DNA of 64,000 nt, taken from Bacteroidota bacterium (GTDB lineage: Bacteria > Bacteroidota > Bacteroidia > 2-12-FULL-35-15). Made by a program: the position numbers and the translations under genes. Each line of letters starts with the position of its first letter. The first letter of the stretch is position 1. Under the pieces are notes generated by a model. It did not search any database, was not told the DNA's origin, and was given only the letters and a program-made list of their open reading frames with translations. Location: the NCBI GenBank assembly GCA_947504725.1, contig CANNHN010000001.1:186001-250000 (forward strand), in the 5' to 3' direction. Positions 54,091-60,489 of this stretch are shown here, piece after piece.

Positions 54091-54744
54091 CTATTTCTTC
54101 TTAGGTGCAATCACCATAATCATTTTCTTTCCTTCCAAAACTGGCATTTGCTCTGGTTTTCCGTATTCCTCAAGTTCATTTACAAAACGAAGTAATAAAA
54201 TCTCTCCGTGCTCTTTAAACAAAATTGAACGACCTTTAAAAAATACAAACGCTTTTACTTTTGAACCTTCTTGTAAAAACTTAATGGCATGATTCTTTTT
54301 AAAATTAAAATCGTGCTCATCTGTTTGTGGACCGAAGCGAATTTCCTTAATCACTGTTTTAGCAGCTTTCGACTTCAGTTCCTTTTGTTTTTTCTTTTGA
54401 TCGTATAAAAACTTTTTATAATCAACTATTTTACAAACCGGTGGAACTGCAGTTGGAGAAATCTCCACTAAGTCCAATCCTGCTTCTTTAGCAATTGCCA
54501 AGGCTTTATCTATTGGATAAACTCCTGGTTCAATTCCTTCAAAAACTACACGTACTTCCTTCGCTCTGATGCGTTCGTTAATAGCATGAAGTTCTTCTCT
54601 TCTTCTTTGTCCGCCTCTTCCAAAACGTCTATCAACGTTTGCAGCAGGAGCTGTTCCTGTTGCTGAAGTTCCGGGTTTTACAAATTTCCCTGGTGCAGGC
54701 TTATTAAATTTATTACCTGAATTGTTGTTAAATGGAGCTGCTAT
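54091..54744 (-). CDS. infC: Translation initiation factor IF-3, with an AUA start codon
   Basis: The protein has 217 residues with the start placed at ATA (54744-54742). The conserved domains are present: [20 protein letters not shown], then [38 protein letters not shown] and [20 protein letters not shown]. The frame has no ATG or GTG upstream of the conserved N-domain. A TAG lies five codons before the ATA and overlaps the Shine-Dalgarno AGGAGG (54753-54758), 8 bases away. The first ~45 residues are a low-complexity NK/AP-rich extension, as in other Bacteroidota. Use of a rare start codon lets IF-3 control its own synthesis in enteric bacteria (AUU), so the same logic is likely. thrS lies 36 bases upstream. 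Confidence 0.9.
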
Positions 54745-54752
54745 AGCTTGTT

Positions 54753-54758
54753 CCTCCT
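54753..54758 (-). promoter_or_regulatory. Strong Shine-Dalgarno site of infC
   Basis: The minus strand reads AGGAGG, a full anti-16S match, 8 bases before the AUA start. Most genes in this window have no such motif, so this site helps identify the unusual start codon. Confidence 0.85.
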
Positions 54759-54780
54759 AAATTTGTTAATACTCTATTGA

Positions 54781-56712
54781 TTAAATCTGTTTTTTAATTT
54801 CTGTGTTGATAATGTCTGCAAACGCTTCTAAATCAAAGGTTCCTAAATCACCATCTCCTTGTTTTCGAACTGCAACTGTATTCTCCGCTTCTTCCTTTTC
54901 CCCTACAATCAGCATGTAAGGCACTTTTTGCAATTCAGTATCTCGTATTTTCTTCCCAATTTTTTCGTTCCTATCGTCTACGAGCCCGCGAATATCGTAA
55001 TTTTTTAACAATTCTAAAACTTTTTTTGCGTAATCATTGTATTTTTCGCTGATTGGAAGAACTGCAACTTGGTCGGGAGTCAACCACAATGGGAATTTCC
55101 CAGCACAATGCTCTATCAAAACAGCAATAAAACGCTCCAAAGACCCAAAAGGAGCACGGTGAATCATTACCGGACGGTGTTTTAGGTTGTCGCTGCCAGT
55201 ATACTCCAATTCAAAACGCTCTGGAAGGTTATAATCTACTTGGATTGTACCCAATTGCCATTTACGTCCAATGGCATCTTTCACCATAAAATCGAGCTTA
55301 GGACCATAAAATGCTGCTTCACCCAATTCAACCACTGTCGTTAGACCTTTTTCAGCTGACGATTCAATAATAGCCGCTTCTGCCAATGCCCAATTTTCAT
55401 CAGAACCAATATATTTGGTTTTGTTTTCTGGATCTCTTAAAGAAATTTGTGCTGTATAATCTGTGAAACCTAAAGCATTAAAAACATACAGTACCAAATC
55501 AATTACTTTACAGAATTCTTCTTTCACTTGATCGGGGCGACAAAATAAATGCGCATCATCTTGTGTAAATCCACGCACACGCGTTAATCCGTGCAATTCA
55601 CCAGCTTGCTCATAACGATAAACGGTACCAAATTCTGCAAAACGGATTGGTAAATCTTTGTAGGAGCGGGGTGATGTTTTATAAATTTCGCAGTGGTGCG
55701 GACAGTTCATTGGTTTTAAGAAAAACTCCTCTCCTTCATGTGGAGTGCGGATAGGCTGAAATGAATCGGCTCCGTATTTTTCATAGTGACCTGAAGTAAT
55801 GTATAAATTCTTATTACCAATGTGCGGAGTTGCAACTGGTAAATAACCACTTTTTAATTGTTGCTTTTGTAAAAACTGAATCAAACGTTCGCGCAAAGCT
55901 GCACCTTTTGGAAGCCACAATGGTAAGCCCATTCCTACTTTTTCAGAAAAAGCAAAAAGTTCTAATTCTTTTCCAAGTTTACGGTGATCGCGTTTTTTTG
56001 CTTCTTCTAAAAGAACTAAGTAGTCTGCTAAATCTTTTTGTTTAGTATAAGTGATCGCGTAAACACGAGTCAACATTTTATTTTTTTCATCGCCTCTCCA
56101 ATACGCTCCAGCAACGTTCATTAGCTTTACAGCCTTTATAACGCTTGTGTTTGGAATGTGTGGTCCGCGACATAAATCAGTGAAATTTCCTTGTTGATAA
56201 AAAGTAATTTGTCCATCAACTAATCCTTCTAAAAGATCAAGTTTGTACTCATCATTTTTCTCAGTAAAATATTTTATTGCATCTGCTTTTGAAACTTCTG
56301 TACGTTTGAATTCGCTTCCTAATCGAGCCAATTCAAGCATTTTGTCTTCTATCCTTTTGAAATCTTCTTGAGAAATTGTTTTTCCTCCTAAGTCGATATC
56401 ATAATAAAATCCATTGTCGATTGGGGGACCAATTCCGAATTTTGTTCCAGGATAAAGTGCTTCCAATGCTTCTGCCATCAAGTGTGCAGAAGAGTGCCAA
56501 AGCGTTGATTTTCCTTCAGCATCGTTCATGGTTAGTAAAACCAATTTCGAATCTTCGTTGATTTGTCGGGATGAATCCCAAACTTCACCGTTTACTTTGG
56601 CTGCTAAAACATTTCTCGCTAAACCTTCAGAGATTGATAACGCAACTTGGTGCGCTGTAGTTCCTTTTTCGTATTCACGAACAGAACCATCGGGTAGTGT
56701 AATTTTAATCAT
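54781..56712 (-). CDS. thrS: Threonine-tRNA ligase
   Basis: The 643-residue enzyme has the TGS domain at the N-terminus ([20 protein letters not shown]). The editing domain follows with the [20 protein letters not shown] metal site and, after it, the SAD-like region. The class II core has motif 2 ([20 protein letters not shown]) and motif 3 ([20 protein letters not shown]). The anticodon-binding domain is at the C-terminus ([20 protein letters not shown]). Active-site zinc ligands are seen in [13 protein letters not shown]. The start is the ATG at 56712, seven codons after an upstream frame start that begins before the TGS strand. It is first in thrS - infC - rpmI - rplT. Confidence 0.97.
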
Positions 56713-56797
56713 TTTTTTTAGTTTGCCAAACATCCAAACAAACGGACGCAGGAATTAATAAGGGTACAAAGATAATTGATTATTTGAATTGTAGAAT

Positions 56798-57244
56798 TTA
56801 TTTCCCTTTAAAACCAATTAGCATCACAATGCATGCTTTGTGATCGGCTTCGGTATTACTTGGTGGGATTTCGTAGACGATAGAGTAGGTGCCAAATGCA
56901 AGAGGTTCGTATGTCCACGTTTTATTGTTGGCATCCATTATTTTTTCAGCCAATTTCACATTCGGATTTGCTTTATCGTAAATGTTAACAATCACTTGTT
57001 CTTCGAAATCAGAAGTACAAAATATAAGTTTGTATTTCTGGTTTTCAAAGGCTATGAACTCGATTGGAATATTTTTATTGATTTGTTCAAACGAAAACTC
57101 ATTCATTAAAAAACCATCATACTTATAAGGCTTTTTAATACTTATTTTGTTTTCTTCAATGATTTGAGAGATTTTGTATTGAGAAAATGAAAAATGAGAT
57201 AAACACAAAAAGAGAAGAAGAAGGAATGTGTGTGTGTTGCGCAT
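56798..57244 (-). CDS. Small secreted protein, PYKYD family, paralogue 3
   Basis: The protein has 148 residues with a signal peptide (FLLLLFLCLSHFSFSQ). The family motif KKPYKYDG is at about residues 37-44, then MNEFSFEQINKNIPIEFIAF, the central strand YKLIFCTSDFEEQVIVNIYD, and a C-terminal YSIVYEIPPSN ... CIVMLIGFK. The same layout is shared with the two adjacent genes upstream (57279 and 57744). The domain looks like an all-beta sandwich of about 120 residues. I recognise no known family. It is the last of four genes before thrS. Expression with thrS is possible, as only 85 bases separate them. Confidence 0.75.
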   Translation of the reverse strand: MRNTHTFLLLLFLCLSHFSFSQYKISQIIEENKISIKKPYKYDGFLMNEFSFEQINKNIPIEFIAFENQKYKLIFCTSDFEEQVIVNIYDKANPNVKLAEKIMDANNKTWTYEPLAFGTYSIVYEIPPSNTEADHKACIVMLIGFKGK

Positions 57245-57278
57245 GAAATTAATCTTCTAATTCTTCTTTACCAACATA

Positions 57279-57737
57279 TCATATTAATAATACAACACAA
57301 CCCGTTTTTACTTTTCCGTCAATACTTTTAGGTACATCATATTCTATGTAGTAATTTCCTGCTTTTGCTGGTTGAAATGACCAAAAATTATTGTCAACTC
57401 CTTGCGCATTATCGTACACTTTAGTTCTTCCTTTTTTTACTCTGCTACTTTTGTCGTAAATATTCATTTTAACTTGCTCTTCAAAACCTGAAGAACAAAA
57501 AATCAATCTGTATTTCATTCCACGAAAAGCAGTAAAAAGCACTTCTTGTTTTTTTACTTTATTATCAAATGTAAATTCAGTTATAACATAAGCATCATAC
57601 TTATATGGTTTTGGGACATTCGGTTTGCAGCTCTTCATAATCTGCTTCGCTTTACATTGCCAAAAACTATTATGGTTAGTACACAATAGCGCACTAACCA
57701 TAATAAGAATAGTAAAAATAAATTTACTTTTATTCAT
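57279..57737 (-). CDS. Small secreted protein, PYKYD family, paralogue 2
   Basis: The protein has 152 residues. The signal region is IFTILIMVSALLCTNH. A KSCKPNVPKPYKYDAYVITE block follows, with PYKYD at about residues 44-48 and two cysteines shortly before it. The shared core is YRLIFCSSGFEEQVKMNIYD, and near the end come AGNYYIEYDVPKSIDGKVKT and GCVVLLI. The stop falls right after VLLI, whereas both paralogues continue with G-[YF]-K, so it is shorter by two to five residues. The gene is 6 bases after paralogue 1 and 34 bases before paralogue 3. Function unknown. Confidence 0.75.
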   Translation of the reverse strand: MNKSKFIFTILIMVSALLCTNHNSFWQCKAKQIMKSCKPNVPKPYKYDAYVITEFTFDNKVKKQEVLFTAFRGMKYRLIFCSSGFEEQVKMNIYDKSSRVKKGRTKVYDNAQGVDNNFWSFQPAKAGNYYIEYDVPKSIDGKVKTGCVVLLI

Positions 57738-57743
57738 TAAATA

Positions 57744-58205
57744 TTATTTGTATCCAACCATAAAAACCATACAGCCAGTTAATTTAGCACTTGTACTATC
57801 AGCAGGAACATCATAATCGACAAACATTTTACGAGCACGAGGAACATCAAAAATTAATTGTGTTTCATCTGCTTTAGCATCTTTGTTTGAGAAAATAGCT
57901 TCTCTCTTTTTAGCCGCTTTATCTTTTGTATATACGTTTATTTTAATTCCTTTAGGCATTCCTGAAGTGTTAAAAACCAAACGGTATTTTTCACCAATAA
58001 AAACTGGCACTTCAACTTCTAATTGTTGTGCTTTTTTAGTAAAGTTAATTTTTGTGAACTTTTGGCTATCGTATTTATACGGATCCAATTTTTTCTTACA
58101 ACTTGTTGTAAGCGCCTTTTTGTCGCAGTTGTCAGCCGTTTGAATGGTTGTAAATCCAAAAACAAACACCAACCCAACTAAACTTATATAAAATGCTTTT
58201 TTCAT
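57744..58205 (-). CDS. Small secreted protein, PYKYD family, paralogue 1
   Basis: The protein has 153 residues with a signal peptide (FYISLVGLVFVFGFTTIQTA). TSCKKKLDPYKYDSQKFTKI carries the PYKYD motif at about residues 42-46 and a nearby cysteine. The family core is YRLVFNTSGMPKGIKINVYT, then RARKMFVDYDVPADSTSAKL and a final GCMVFMVGYK. It lacks the phenylalanine-cysteine pair (IFC) of the other two, having VFN instead. It follows the lipoprotein gene by 34 bases. The three paralogues are only about a third identical by eye, so the duplication is old. Function unknown. Confidence 0.75.
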   Translation of the reverse strand: MKKAFYISLVGLVFVFGFTTIQTADNCDKKALTTSCKKKLDPYKYDSQKFTKINFTKKAQQLEVEVPVFIGEKYRLVFNTSGMPKGIKINVYTKDKAAKKREAIFSNKDAKADETQLIFDVPRARKMFVDYDVPADSTSAKLTGCMVFMVGYK

Positions 58206-58239
58206 ATCCTTAAATTTAATTTTTTATCTTTTTTTAGAA

Positions 58240-59118
58240 TTATCCGTTTATAAACTTAACACGTAAAGCTTCAATTTTTGTTGTTAATTGAGATACTTCA
58301 TCATCTGTTAATGTTAATTCTTTTTCTGTATCTTCCTCACCTTCTGGATTGTTTTTAACTGAAGGTAAAGCATCATATATGTCTTTAATTACAACGAGGT
58401 CAGCTATCAAACCAGAAATTGCAGGGTCTTTTTTCTCTTCTGCTTTCAACGCGTTAATAATACTTCCTAAGATTGTCATTTGTTCAGCCAATTTGCTATT
58501 CAATTCTTTGTCTTTCCCTTTCACATATACTTTTGAACCGATATACATACTTTCAATCCAAGCTCCAGAGAAAACGATAGAAGTAATTTGCTGTTGATCA
58601 TTTTCATCTAAATACATATCAGTAACCATTTGCAATTCTGCAATAATGTATGCCAATGAATCTTCGTTACTTAAATTTTTCTCAAAACGTTTAGACAAGT
58701 TTCCTTGATCAAAAACAGTTCCCATGCCTAAGTTGTCAGCTAACTGACGGCTCAATTTCATGTATGTCATTGCCTCTTGATTTTGCTTATTCAAAACTGT
58801 ATAAGATAAATCAGCACTGTAAACACCTAAATTGATTGCTTTGGTTAAGTTTGAAGTATATTTTGCCGGATCTTTTAAATCACTAGTAACACCAGTTTTG
58901 TATTTTAATCCTGATTTTTTGAAAATAGATGCAATTTGTAGAGGCGAAGGAAGGGAATAGGTTACCTCTTCTGTTTCTACTTCTACTGAAACTGAATCTT
59001 CTGTAGGAGGAATAACCGTTTCTTCAGTTGCAGTGTCGCTACCGCAAGCTACCATAAACAAACTAGCTGCAATGAACAATGCGCCTTTTACTACTAGTGA
59101 TTTTTTCTTTAAAAGCAT
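58240..59118 (-). CDS. Lipoprotein of unknown function (first gene of the PYKYD operon)
   Basis: The protein has 292 residues with a lipoprotein signal (GALFIAASLFMVACGS), so residue 26 is the lipidated cysteine. An acidic linker (DSVSVEVETEEVTYSL) follows. The remaining ~220 residues are almost all alpha-helical, with KAINLGVYSADLSYTVLNKQ, SLAYIIAELQMVTDMYLDEN and SGAWIESMYIGSKVYVKGKD. The acidic C-terminus ends with a helical SQLTTKIEALRVKFING. I recognise no enzyme motif. It heads an operon with three small secreted proteins, so it may be the membrane-anchored partner of those proteins. Confidence 0.75.
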   Translation of the reverse strand: MLLKKKSLVVKGALFIAASLFMVACGSDTATEETVIPPTEDSVSVEVETEEVTYSLPSPLQIASIFKKSGLKYKTGVTSDLKDPAKYTSNLTKAINLGVYSADLSYTVLNKQNQEAMTYMKLSRQLADNLGMGTVFDQGNLSKRFEKNLSNEDSLAYIIAELQMVTDMYLDENDQQQITSIVFSGAWIESMYIGSKVYVKGKDKELNSKLAEQMTILGSIINALKAEEKKDPAISGLIADLVVIKDIYDALPSVKNNPEGEEDTEKELTLTDDEVSQLTTKIEALRVKFING

Positions 59119-59217: not shown

Positions 59218-60489
59218 CTACCCTTTGTTAAAGTAGGTTTGTTTATTATTGATAATTCCTATGACTTTCCCGGTAAATTTAGTTCCTATAAATGGAGTGT
59301 TGTTTGACTTAGATAGAATGTGTTTCTTTTCGAAAACCCATTCTTTATTTGGATTGAAGAGTGTTAAGTTTGCGATTTCACCCTCCGCAATTTTATTTTC
59401 CTTTAGCTTTAAGATCCTGCGTGGATTTGCTGTAATTGTTTCAATAATTGTATCCAGTTTTATCTTGCCTTTATTAGAATTTAGCAGTCCGAATGCACTT
59501 TCCAGACCAATCATCCCATTTGATGCATAATCAAATTCTACGTCTTTTGATTCAATGTCTTGTGGGCGGTGATCGCAGCTAAGAGAGTCAATTGTTCCGT
59601 CTGAGATGCCTTTTTTAAGTGCTTCCATGTCCGTTTTTGTTCTGAGTGGAGGATTTAGCTTGTAGTTGCTGTCGAATCCATTCAGTAAGCTGTCTTCTAA
59701 AGCAATGTTGTAGATATTAGCTGACGCTGTTACTTTCAATCCTTTGGCTTTTGCATTTCGGATAAGTTCTACCGATTTTTGTGTGGATATGTTAGATATG
59801 TGGATAGTAGCATTTGTATATTCAGCTAAAAAGATATTTCTATCTACCATCAGTTCCTCAGCAAGGGCTGGAATTCCTTTTAAACCAAGTTGTGTTGATA
59901 CAACTCCTTCGTTCATTTTTCCATCGTTTGAGATGGATTTTTCATCACAATGTGTTATAATGAGTCCATCAAAATTTTGAGCGTACAGAAGGGCTCGCAT
60001 CAATAAACCTGAGTCCTTCACCGCTTTCTTATCATCCGAAAAGGCTACAGCTCCAGCCATTTTCATATCATACATTTCCGATATGTCTTGTCCTTCTTGA
60101 TTATTAGAAAGTGTTCCTATCGGATACACATCTATTATAGAATCTGATGTCTTGTTCTTTATATATAATACTTCAGCTTTTGAATGAATTGTTGGATTTG
60201 TTGAAGAGACAACTGCAACTCCAGTATATCCACCTGAAGCAGCAGCTTTCATTCCGCTTTCAATATCTTCTTTGTGTTCGAATCCTGGGTCGCAAAAACT
60301 AACTTGCATGTCTAACCAGCCTATTGAAAGATGCAAATTTTCTGCTTCTACAACTTTCACGCTTTTATCTGCCGCTATCTTTGATTTTATGGATTTTATA
60401 ATTCCATTTTCTATTAATACATCCATCACTTTCCCATTGTGGGCTGACTTAGAGTCAATGATGTGAGCCGATTTGATAAGTATGTTCAT
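59218..60489 (-). CDS. Dihydroorotase homologue lacking the HxH metal motif (probably non-catalytic)
   Basis: The 423-residue amidohydrolase-fold protein is of class I dihydroorotase length. At the place of the family signature D-x-H-x-H-x-R-[DE]-PG it reads DMQVSFCDPGFEHKEDIESG, so Gln62 and Ser64 replace the two metal-binding histidines and Cys66 replaces the substrate arginine. Other sites are partly kept: THCDEKSI, ATIHISNI and SCDHRPQD. Similar sequences lacking HxH are found in Bacteroidota and resemble the inactive PyrC' chains that pair with aspartate carbamoyltransferase elsewhere. Catalysis is doubtful. A true dihydroorotase is expected elsewhere in the genome. The gene lies 12 bases after the BatA-like gene. 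Confidence 0.85.
   Translation of the reverse strand: MNILIKSAHIIDSKSAHNGKVMDVLIENGIIKSIKSKIAADKSVKVVEAENLHLSIGWLDMQVSFCDPGFEHKEDIESGMKAAASGGYTGVAVVSSTNPTIHSKAEVLYIKNKTSDSIIDVYPIGTLSNNQEGQDISEMYDMKMAGAVAFSDDKKAVKDSGLLMRALLYAQNFDGLIITHCDEKSISNDGKMNEGVVSTQLGLKGIPALAEELMVDRNIFLAEYTNATIHISNISTQKSVELIRNAKAKGLKVTASANIYNIALEDSLLNGFDSNYKLNPPLRTKTDMEALKKGISDGTIDSLSCDHRPQDIESKDVEFDYASNGMIGLESAFGLLNSNKGKIKLDTIIETITANPRRILKLKENKIAEGEIANLTLFNPNKEWVFEKKHILSKSNNTPFIGTKFTGKVIGIINNKQTYFNKG

Follow-up and report, generated by a model that had tools for sequence, protein, structure and literature searches.

An operon of a lipoprotein and three secreted proteins beside thrS in a Bacteroidota genome, with sister copies linked to an ABCG-like exporter

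The LP-SP operon

The window analyzed here is a 64,000-nucleotide stretch of a Bacteroidota genome (assembly GCA_947504725.1, contig CANNHN010000001.1, positions 186,001 to 250,000). Its minus strand carries an operon encoding a lipoprotein (LP) and three small secreted proteins (SP1, SP2, and SP3; collectively SP), listed in Table 1. LP and SP proved to be paired across many genomes, in which sister copies of the pair often adjoin the gene of an ABCG-like ATP-binding cassette (ABC) exporter.

The gaps LP/SP1, SP1/SP2, and SP2/SP3 measure 34, 6, and 34 bases. The PYKYD motif is invariant in the three SPs, each of which also has Y[KR]L[IV]F, [IV]xY[DE][IV]P, and [AG]C[IVM]V. By BLASTP, SP2 and SP3 share 40% identity (E 2e-36), SP1 and SP2 31% (E 6e-23), and SP1 and SP3 27% (E 2e-13), a likeness beyond chance, by which the three are homologous. 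LP has a signal peptide and a lipobox-type cysteine (Cys25) that is invariant among 73 aligned relatives, while SP1 to SP3 carry, by eye, ordinary signal peptides. None of the four proteins gave a match above the curated cut-off in Pfam or NCBIfam. An earlier note on this DNA, made from the letters alone, had described four minus-strand genes with gaps of 6 to 34 bases and three motif-sharing yet strongly diverged proteins of no described family, and had allowed that the family might prove to be an already characterized domain. The layout, the shared motifs at 27 to 40% pairwise identity, and the database searches bear this description out, and no characterized domain emerged above the cut-offs.

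Table 1. Features of the operon and its flanks (positions in the window)
Feature	Position	Strand	Remarks
LP, lipoprotein	58240-59118	minus	292 aa; open reading frame (ORF); heads the operon
SP1, secreted protein	57744-58205	minus	153 aa; ORF
SP2, second tandem SP	57279-57737	minus	152 aa; ORF
SP3, third tandem SP	56798-57244	minus	148 aa; ORF
Dihydroorotase-like gene	59218-60489	minus	upstream side of the operon
thrS	54781-56733		downstream side of the operon; followed by infC, rpmI, and rplT
infC	54091-54768	minus

Among weaker matches, the three window SPs gave none in Pfam to GOLD (PF01105) or PPC (PF04151) up to E 1, and one of 86 aligned SPs matched each of these families (E 6.7e-5 and 4e-4, respectively). 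Such weak matches of single SP members, to GOLD, TPPII, and PPC, agree with the fold predicted below. A sequence search of the PDB returned no convincing relative of LP or of SP (best for SP, 0.013, the V domain of BspA). Several assignments were weighed and not adopted. The LppK and DUF4969 matches of LP are below the cut-offs and confined to N-terminal residues 4-66, PG1828 is matched by 3 of 73 LP relatives (best E 0.0022), and imelysin and DUF3829 have no place among the Pfam matches listed for LP (25 of 48 families in one search). A toxin or defense role was suggested only by sub-cut-off Pfam matches in single proteins that others do not share (TreTu_C, 0.014; TcdA1_RBD_3, 0.1); in PADLOC, P0001-P0004 had no match at E <= 0.001, and three exporter matches all overlapped the ABC domain. 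No LP-SP fusion protein was found among 140 LP and 139 SP ORFs.

Bacteroidota surface lipoproteins carry a lipoprotein export signal (LES), a polar residue and an acidic run directly after Cys+1. In the LPs with a pattern-found lipobox (107 of 127), G occupies +2 in 66, and acidic residues reach 40% at +4 and 49% at +8. The published LES consensus sequences are QKDDE, SDDDD, and SDDFE.

Pairing and co-divergence of LP and SP

Adjacency was scored by a six-frame search, ORF calling alone having missed SP in six loci. In loci fetched by LP alone (the best 80 of at least 583 confirmed stretches of the contig scan described below), with each LP of a multi-LP locus counted, SP adjoins 77 of the 78 LPs away from contig edges (71 downstream and 6 upstream). 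The same holds for 5 of 6 LPs in the window genome and for 45 of 52 in the other relatives, a set that, unlike the LP-fetched one, includes loci chosen for their SP matches. An LP is accompanied by one, two, or three SPs, depending on the genome. We define an LP with an adjoining SP on the same strand as an LP-SP module, and the window operon is one.

LP and SP distances are correlated (r = 0.88 over 127 pairs, with 0.09 the best of 1000 shuffles), which partly mirrors shared species history; comparison of paralogue partners answers part of that concern. In genomes with at least two pairs, 115 of 124 reciprocal-best LPs retain the same SP partner, whereas 45 would be expected. The correlation and the retained partners together indicate that LP and SP evolve as cognate pairs, and on this sequence evidence the pairing is real and old.

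The earlier note had proposed a multi-subunit assembly anchored by the lipoprotein, or three binding proteins for related ligands, and had named a lack of linkage in other genomes as grounds for giving this up. LP and SP adjoin nearly everywhere examined, in keeping with an anchored assembly. Because the SP number varies from one to three, neither a complex with a fixed set of three SPs nor three ligands are indicated. At loci L062, L063, and L066 lie three SP genes with no LP within 2.5 kb, for which SP2 is the closest window SP; at L063, a SpoIIE-like phosphatase was noticed by eye about 3 kb from the LP-less SP.

Predicted structures and cysteines

The AlphaFold2 model of LP, computed from 73 aligned sequences, is all-helical (predicted local distance difference test, pLDDT, 86; predicted template modeling score, pTM, 0.80). 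It had no convincing match in the PDB. Readings of LP as an imelysin, a DUF3829 protein, or a SNAP-like protein were set aside, the best Foldseek match (E 0.066) and that to VIA (Z 8.4, 95 residues) both falling within the noise of helical proteins. Likewise, the DUF3829-like helical Bacteroidota lipoprotein 3rh3 (Z 5.4) and imelysin-like 3pf0 (Z 6.2) score at the noise level of helical bundles, and neither has a place among the LP sequence matches listed.

SP2 was modeled from 86 sequences as an eight-stranded beta-sandwich (pLDDT 87, pTM 0.74). Its best structural match is the GOLD domain of p24delta1 (Z 8.7, 89 residues, 2.3 A), level with which stands the Bacillus fiber subunit Ena2A (Z 8.4, 97 residues, 3.9 A). 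Supernatant protein factor (Z 7.6), a subtilase tail (Z 7.3), and the disulfide-linked Bacillus pilin 7a02 (Z 7.0) follow; the model also resembles the GOLD domains of Sec14-like proteins and ACBD3 and PPC-like protease tails (Z ~7), further sandwiches likewise reach Z 7 or above, and the best Foldseek hit is Sec14-like 3 (E 3.9e-4). SP is thus predicted to be a GOLD/PPC-like beta-sandwich, by which we claim no family membership. Helices appear in the model only at residues 4-21 (the signal peptide) and 30-40, and the C-terminal end is a beta strand. No membrane segment is seen beyond the signal peptide, and the C-terminal transmembrane segment and coiled coil of p24/TMED proteins are not found in the model.

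Of the 86 SPs, 73 have cysteines at both SP2 positions, 28 and 147, and 11 have neither; two, of which SP3 is one, have only the last. Because these cysteines co-vary, they are likely to form a disulfide, either within one molecule or between molecules, which in turn would place SP in an oxidizing compartment.

An ABCG-like exporter beside sister copies

A frequent neighbor of the sister LP-SP pairs encodes an exporter of 1030 residues. In the window genome (contig C5), its single chain has the ABCG-type order, with an ABC domain (PF00005, E 4.6e-30, residues 265-416) followed by an ABC2 membrane domain (PF01061, E 4.6e-17, residues 565-756), and its best PDB matches are CDR1 and ABCG1 (E down to 2.5e-44), ABCB chains coming next. 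The N-termini of 16 of 19 exporters match TerB at E <= 0.1 (best 5.8e-10), that of the window genome's exporter falling just under the cut-off. The region showed no sequence relative in the PDB, and an FHA domain that we had suspected there by eye was absent from the Pfam matches. Six hydrophobic segments were counted in 30 of 33 full-length exporters, segments 5 and 6 being separated by a loop of 225-244 residues (median 237). In ABCG proteins, the loop before the last membrane helix is extracytoplasmic.

The 59 genomes surveyed for linkage comprise the window genome, 35 congeners, and single representatives of 23 other families of the class. They hold 70 exporter places, gene fragments included and two pieces on G040:C82 joined. 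LP lies within 1 kb at 56 of these and at 1.5 kb, on the opposite strand, at one more; at nine places, a contig end interrupts the exporter or lies close by, and an SP adjoins two of these. The gene order takes the forms LP-SP-ABC, ABC-LP-SP, LP-ABC, and SiaC-LP-ABC, and this variety argues for function, rather than frozen synteny, behind the linkage. Both LP and exporter are present in 47 genomes, LP only in 2, exporter only in none, and neither in 10 (Fisher 1e-9), with the marginal genome G030 (LP E 0.005) scored as LP-negative; otherwise, LP only would be 3 and neither 9. With one genome per family, the corresponding counts are 15, 1, 0, and 8 (p 1.2e-5). For the LP-SP family, gene neighborhoods and co-occurrence make the link to the exporter a strong one. 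The window genome has one exporter match, which lies beside the C5 pair and not beside the window operon. At L235 (1992-2467, plus strand; G012:C84), an LP beside an exporter was matched in two overlapping frames, the frameshift lying either in the gene or in the assembly.

SiaB and SiaC at the exporter loci

Genes for SiaC (PF09345) and SiaB (DUF6272) adjoin the exporter or LP in many loci. SiaC is held by 20 of 37 exporter-bearing loci and lies within 5 kb of at least 30 of the 70 exporter places, a lower bound from the first 119 SiaC places, where 0.56 would be expected for 4-Mb genomes. A 99-genome sample of the phylum, which we take to be part of the 296-genome sample described below, contains three genomes that have LP, the exporter, and SiaC together, and one more that has SiaC alone.

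The SiaC of the C5 locus matches PF09345 at E 1.4e-45. Its LEYFNTSSSK aligns with LLYLNTSSIK, the peptide containing the acceptor Thr of Pseudomonas aeruginosa SiaC according to PMC7647112, and the acceptor Thr is conserved in the NTSS motif. The SiaB relative next to it (L057:3-560) matches DUF6272 at E 2.2e-43, and another, at L214, matches PDB 6kko_A (E 1.4e-13). A sigma-factor-like and an anti-sigma-like gene, recognized by eye, lie between the window genome's exporter and siaB-siaC (L057:1126-2443, minus strand), which suggests transcriptional control at the exporter locus.

In locus L216, the one scanned for it, we found the SpoIIE/PP2C domain of SiaA-type phosphatases. The same locus encodes a protein (L216:6359-7462, minus strand) in which an exporter-type N-terminal region is fused to a SiaC domain (E 1.3e-36). 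This N-terminus resembles that of the exporter with 27 bits and E 1.3e-10 in HMMER, for this one sequence, and with 71% and E 3.6e-5 in hhalign. The fusion gene adjoins genes for the exporter, SiaC, two SiaB relatives, and SpoIIE phosphatase, and makes a case for contact between SiaC and the exporter. The modulation of neighboring proteins that the authors of PMC8457831 suggest for such domains would here concern an exporter.

Paralogue groups, genomic places, and distribution

Of the 127 pairs, 31 stand ahead of the exporter and 20 ahead of thrS, 17 follow polA, and 9 follow dxs. In the LP tree, one label change suffices for the 31 pairs on the upstream side of the exporter (support 76; shuffled mean 25.9), and five TamA-side pairs form one clade (support 100; shuffled mean 4.9 label changes). 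Label changes number three for the thrS-side pairs (shuffled mean 18.4), two for the dxs pairs (7.8), and four for the polA pairs (15.9); the four pairs downstream of the exporter do not cluster. The window LP belongs to a set of 37 rows, starred in the tree, that stands apart from the exporter-side clade and holds all 20 thrS-side pairs, including those of Crocinitomicaceae and other Flavobacteriales. Two loci of this set lie close to the machinery described above: at L136, three LP-SP pairs start 1.8 kb from an exporter, with one opposite-strand gene between, and at L071, 2.6 kb separate SiaB-SiaC from a thrS-side pair. The operon in the window represents an old paralogue at thrS-infC-rpmI-rplT, with SP duplicated to three.

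Six clear LP copies are found in the window genome, a seventh match having E 0.03, together with seven SP matches; the window LP is 29-35% identical to the other five. In the 59-genome set, LP matches occur in 50 and SP1 matches in 36 genomes (E <= 0.01, own genome included). SP is present in 110 of 198 genomes sampled from the class. A 296-genome sample of the phylum held LP in at least 7 genomes, two of them weak, with 8 candidates scored per genome so that the LP counts are lower bounds. These two weak matches, in another family of the phylum (G330:C3:47911-48504, E 1.4e-7; G338:C63:27598-28191, E 4.1e-10), are possible far relatives of LP. A contig scan by LP sequence alone gave at least 583 confirmed stretches, of which the best 80 were kept; all 80 contigs are metagenome-assembled, and all but one, labeled Verrucomicrobia, carry Bacteroidota labels (Flavobacteriales, Crocinitomicaceae, Fluviicola, and others). 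The odd one (L142, isolate SAT140) has a typical SP-LP-thrS locus and clusters with Flavobacteriales, so its genome is probably mislabeled. At least one contig labeled Chitinophaga pinensis (L124) joins the window LP's group in the LP tree.

The flanking genes in Table 1, which we recognized by their sequences and presume to be correctly named, include infC, for which no ATG, GTG, or TTG precedes the conserved N-terminal sequence. Its frame is open, with infC-like sequence, upstream of the TTG that starts the listed 136-aa ORF, and its start codon is probably non-standard. Non-standard infC start codons are known in many bacteria. A Bacteroidota promoter was sought before the operon and rejected, since TTTG-N17-22-TANNTTTG shows no enrichment in the window, with 9 occurrences against an expected 6.1, and has no minus-strand match upstream of LP. 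Homologous TPR-like genes of 670 and 645 aa (L059:3978-5990, minus; L071:7094-9031, plus) stand divergent to LP in two LP groups.

Discussion

LP and SP, near-constant neighbors across many Bacteroidia families, form an envelope module that is, it seems, undescribed and is carried by Bacteroidota most of which are uncultured. We favor, with some reserve, the explanation that LP-SP acts as envelope accessory to an ABCG-like exporter gated by the switch and that the copy in the window is a paralogue standing alone next to thrS. LP would be a lipid-anchored helical protein that holds SP, a soluble beta-sandwich exported by the Sec route and probably stabilized by a disulfide. In most sister copies of one clade, LP-SP would serve on the envelope side of the exporter, whose activity phosphorylation by SiaB/SiaC may control via the cytoplasmic, TerB-like N-terminal domain. 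The long loop before the last membrane helix would extend into the periplasm, where LP-SP could dock and take over or retain an exported, presumably lipid-like amphiphile. With the exporter on C5 and SiaC elsewhere, the window operon would probably serve the single exporter of its genome in trans.

Several observations weigh against this explanation. SP is missing beside nine LPs and from a second type of operon, SiaC-LP-ABC, and four exporter places have room for LP but lack one. Two LP-positive relatives, G001 (85% complete) and G057 (91%), have no exporter. No exporter lies near the window operon, and SiaC copies, too, are found elsewhere in its genome. Seven hydrophobic segments were counted in three of the 33 exporters, and under a more stringent threshold one exporter was left with five. 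The fusion of SiaC with an exporter-type N-terminus is known from one protein, at the HMMER and hhalign scores given above. The bond between cysteines 28 and 147 may be intermolecular, and the LP N-terminus has no clear match to the published surface-export signal, which leaves LP either periplasmic or surface-facing. Linkage itself speaks for functional association and is not proof of binding or transport.

More speculatively, these parts might make up an undescribed export machine of Bacteroidota, in which SiaA/B/C gates the TerB-ABCG exporter and exchangeable LP-SP cartridges receive its substrate in the periplasm. Several cartridges at different housekeeping loci would then share one exporter, and the window operon would be one of them, bearing three alternative SP heads; we put this forward tentatively.

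The thrS-linked copy might instead have parted from the exporter and act alone, with LP displaying SP1-SP3 as a ligand-binding complex in the periplasm or at the surface, as the earlier note had envisaged. What lies elsewhere in the genome, and was missed there, are the further LP copies and the link of sister copies with an ABCG-like exporter and SiaB/SiaC. The operon has no exporter in cis, all 20 thrS-side pairs (of 127) fall in the 37-row set apart from the exporter-side clade, their housekeeping site is fixed, SP is duplicated, and GOLD/PPC-like folds often bind ligands or proteins. However, no exporter-bearing relative lacks LP, the exporter is missing from only 2 of 49 LP-positive genomes, and an exporter lies close to the L136 pairs, which belong to the same set, so that we consider this independence unlikely.

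Still less likely is a role in sensing or regulation instead of transport, in which LP-SP would read the state of the envelope and act via the exporter and the Sia switch. SiaB-SiaC does stand beside many copies, the window genome has several LP copies to one exporter, and PMC8457831 proposes that SiaC-family proteins modulate their neighbors. By homology, however, SiaC is a cytoplasmic protein, and LP and SP are not, the exporter being the only membrane-spanning partner found.

Least probable is that LP-SP are matrix, fiber, or adhesion proteins of the cell surface, regulated together with the exporter as part of a program of aggregation or biofilm formation, in which SP might polymerize via its cysteines with LP as anchor: SiaABCD controls aggregation in Pseudomonas aeruginosa (PMC7647112), the SP model matches Ena2A and 7a02 at the level of GOLD, and the SP cysteines are paired, but pairs adjoin thrS, polA, or dxs in many genomes, which is odd for a facultative surface program, a type IX sorting tail is matched in 1 of 86 SPs only (E 0.005), and 11 of the 86 lack both cysteines.

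Through the sister copies, two protein families without an above-cut-off match become connected with an exporter and with an established phosphorylation switch, for which the descriptions available give a diguanylate cyclase as output. If our explanation is correct, SiaC-type switches would gain a second kind of output by controlling membrane export directly, and a common unannotated envelope part of uncultured Bacteroidota would gain a testable function. The literature found, subscription papers aside, contained no description of LP, SP, or SiaC with an ABC exporter in the text available, one paper naming DUF1987, no mention of DUF6272, and nothing combining a GOLD domain, a lipoprotein, Bacteroidetes, and an ABC transporter. 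Among the papers listed, none of those that mention three of SiaC, SiaB, ABC transporter, and Bacteroidetes has a title concerned with this system, and the titles of those on TerB point to tellurite resistance or general genomics.

Comparison with known systems

All domain types except LP have recognizable relatives or folds. The predicted SP fold is like that of the GOLD domains of p24/TMED, Sec14-like proteins, and ACBD3 and of PPC-like protease tails; unlike these, SP stands on its own as a secreted protein of bacteria and has a lipoprotein as its partner. Ena-type Bacillus pilins come within Z 1 of the best GOLD match and share the presence of cysteines, whereas the genomes that pair SP with a lipoprotein are Gram-negative.

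The exporter finds its best PDB sequence matches in ABCG1, ABCG5/G8, and CDR1, from which it differs by its TerB-like N-terminus and the loop of ~237 residues before the last helix. The corresponding loop of eukaryotic ABCG proteins is smaller.

With the SiaA/B/C(/D) system of Pseudomonas aeruginosa, the loci share a SiaC with the NTSS acceptor Thr, SiaB relatives, and SpoIIE/PP2C in one locus; the neighbor here is an ABC exporter with LP and SP, not the diguanylate cyclase SiaD. The nearest functional analogue is Rv1747 of Mycobacterium tuberculosis, a putative ABC exporter whose N-terminal FHA domain is bound by a phosphoprotein (PMC5549992). Both combine ABC and membrane domains with a cytoplasmic N-terminal regulatory region in one chain. 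The exporter described here differs in its TerB-like N-terminus without an FHA match, the long loop before its last helix, and its partners LP and SP, and it would receive its signal from SiaB and SiaC, where Rv1747 has PknF and Rv2623.

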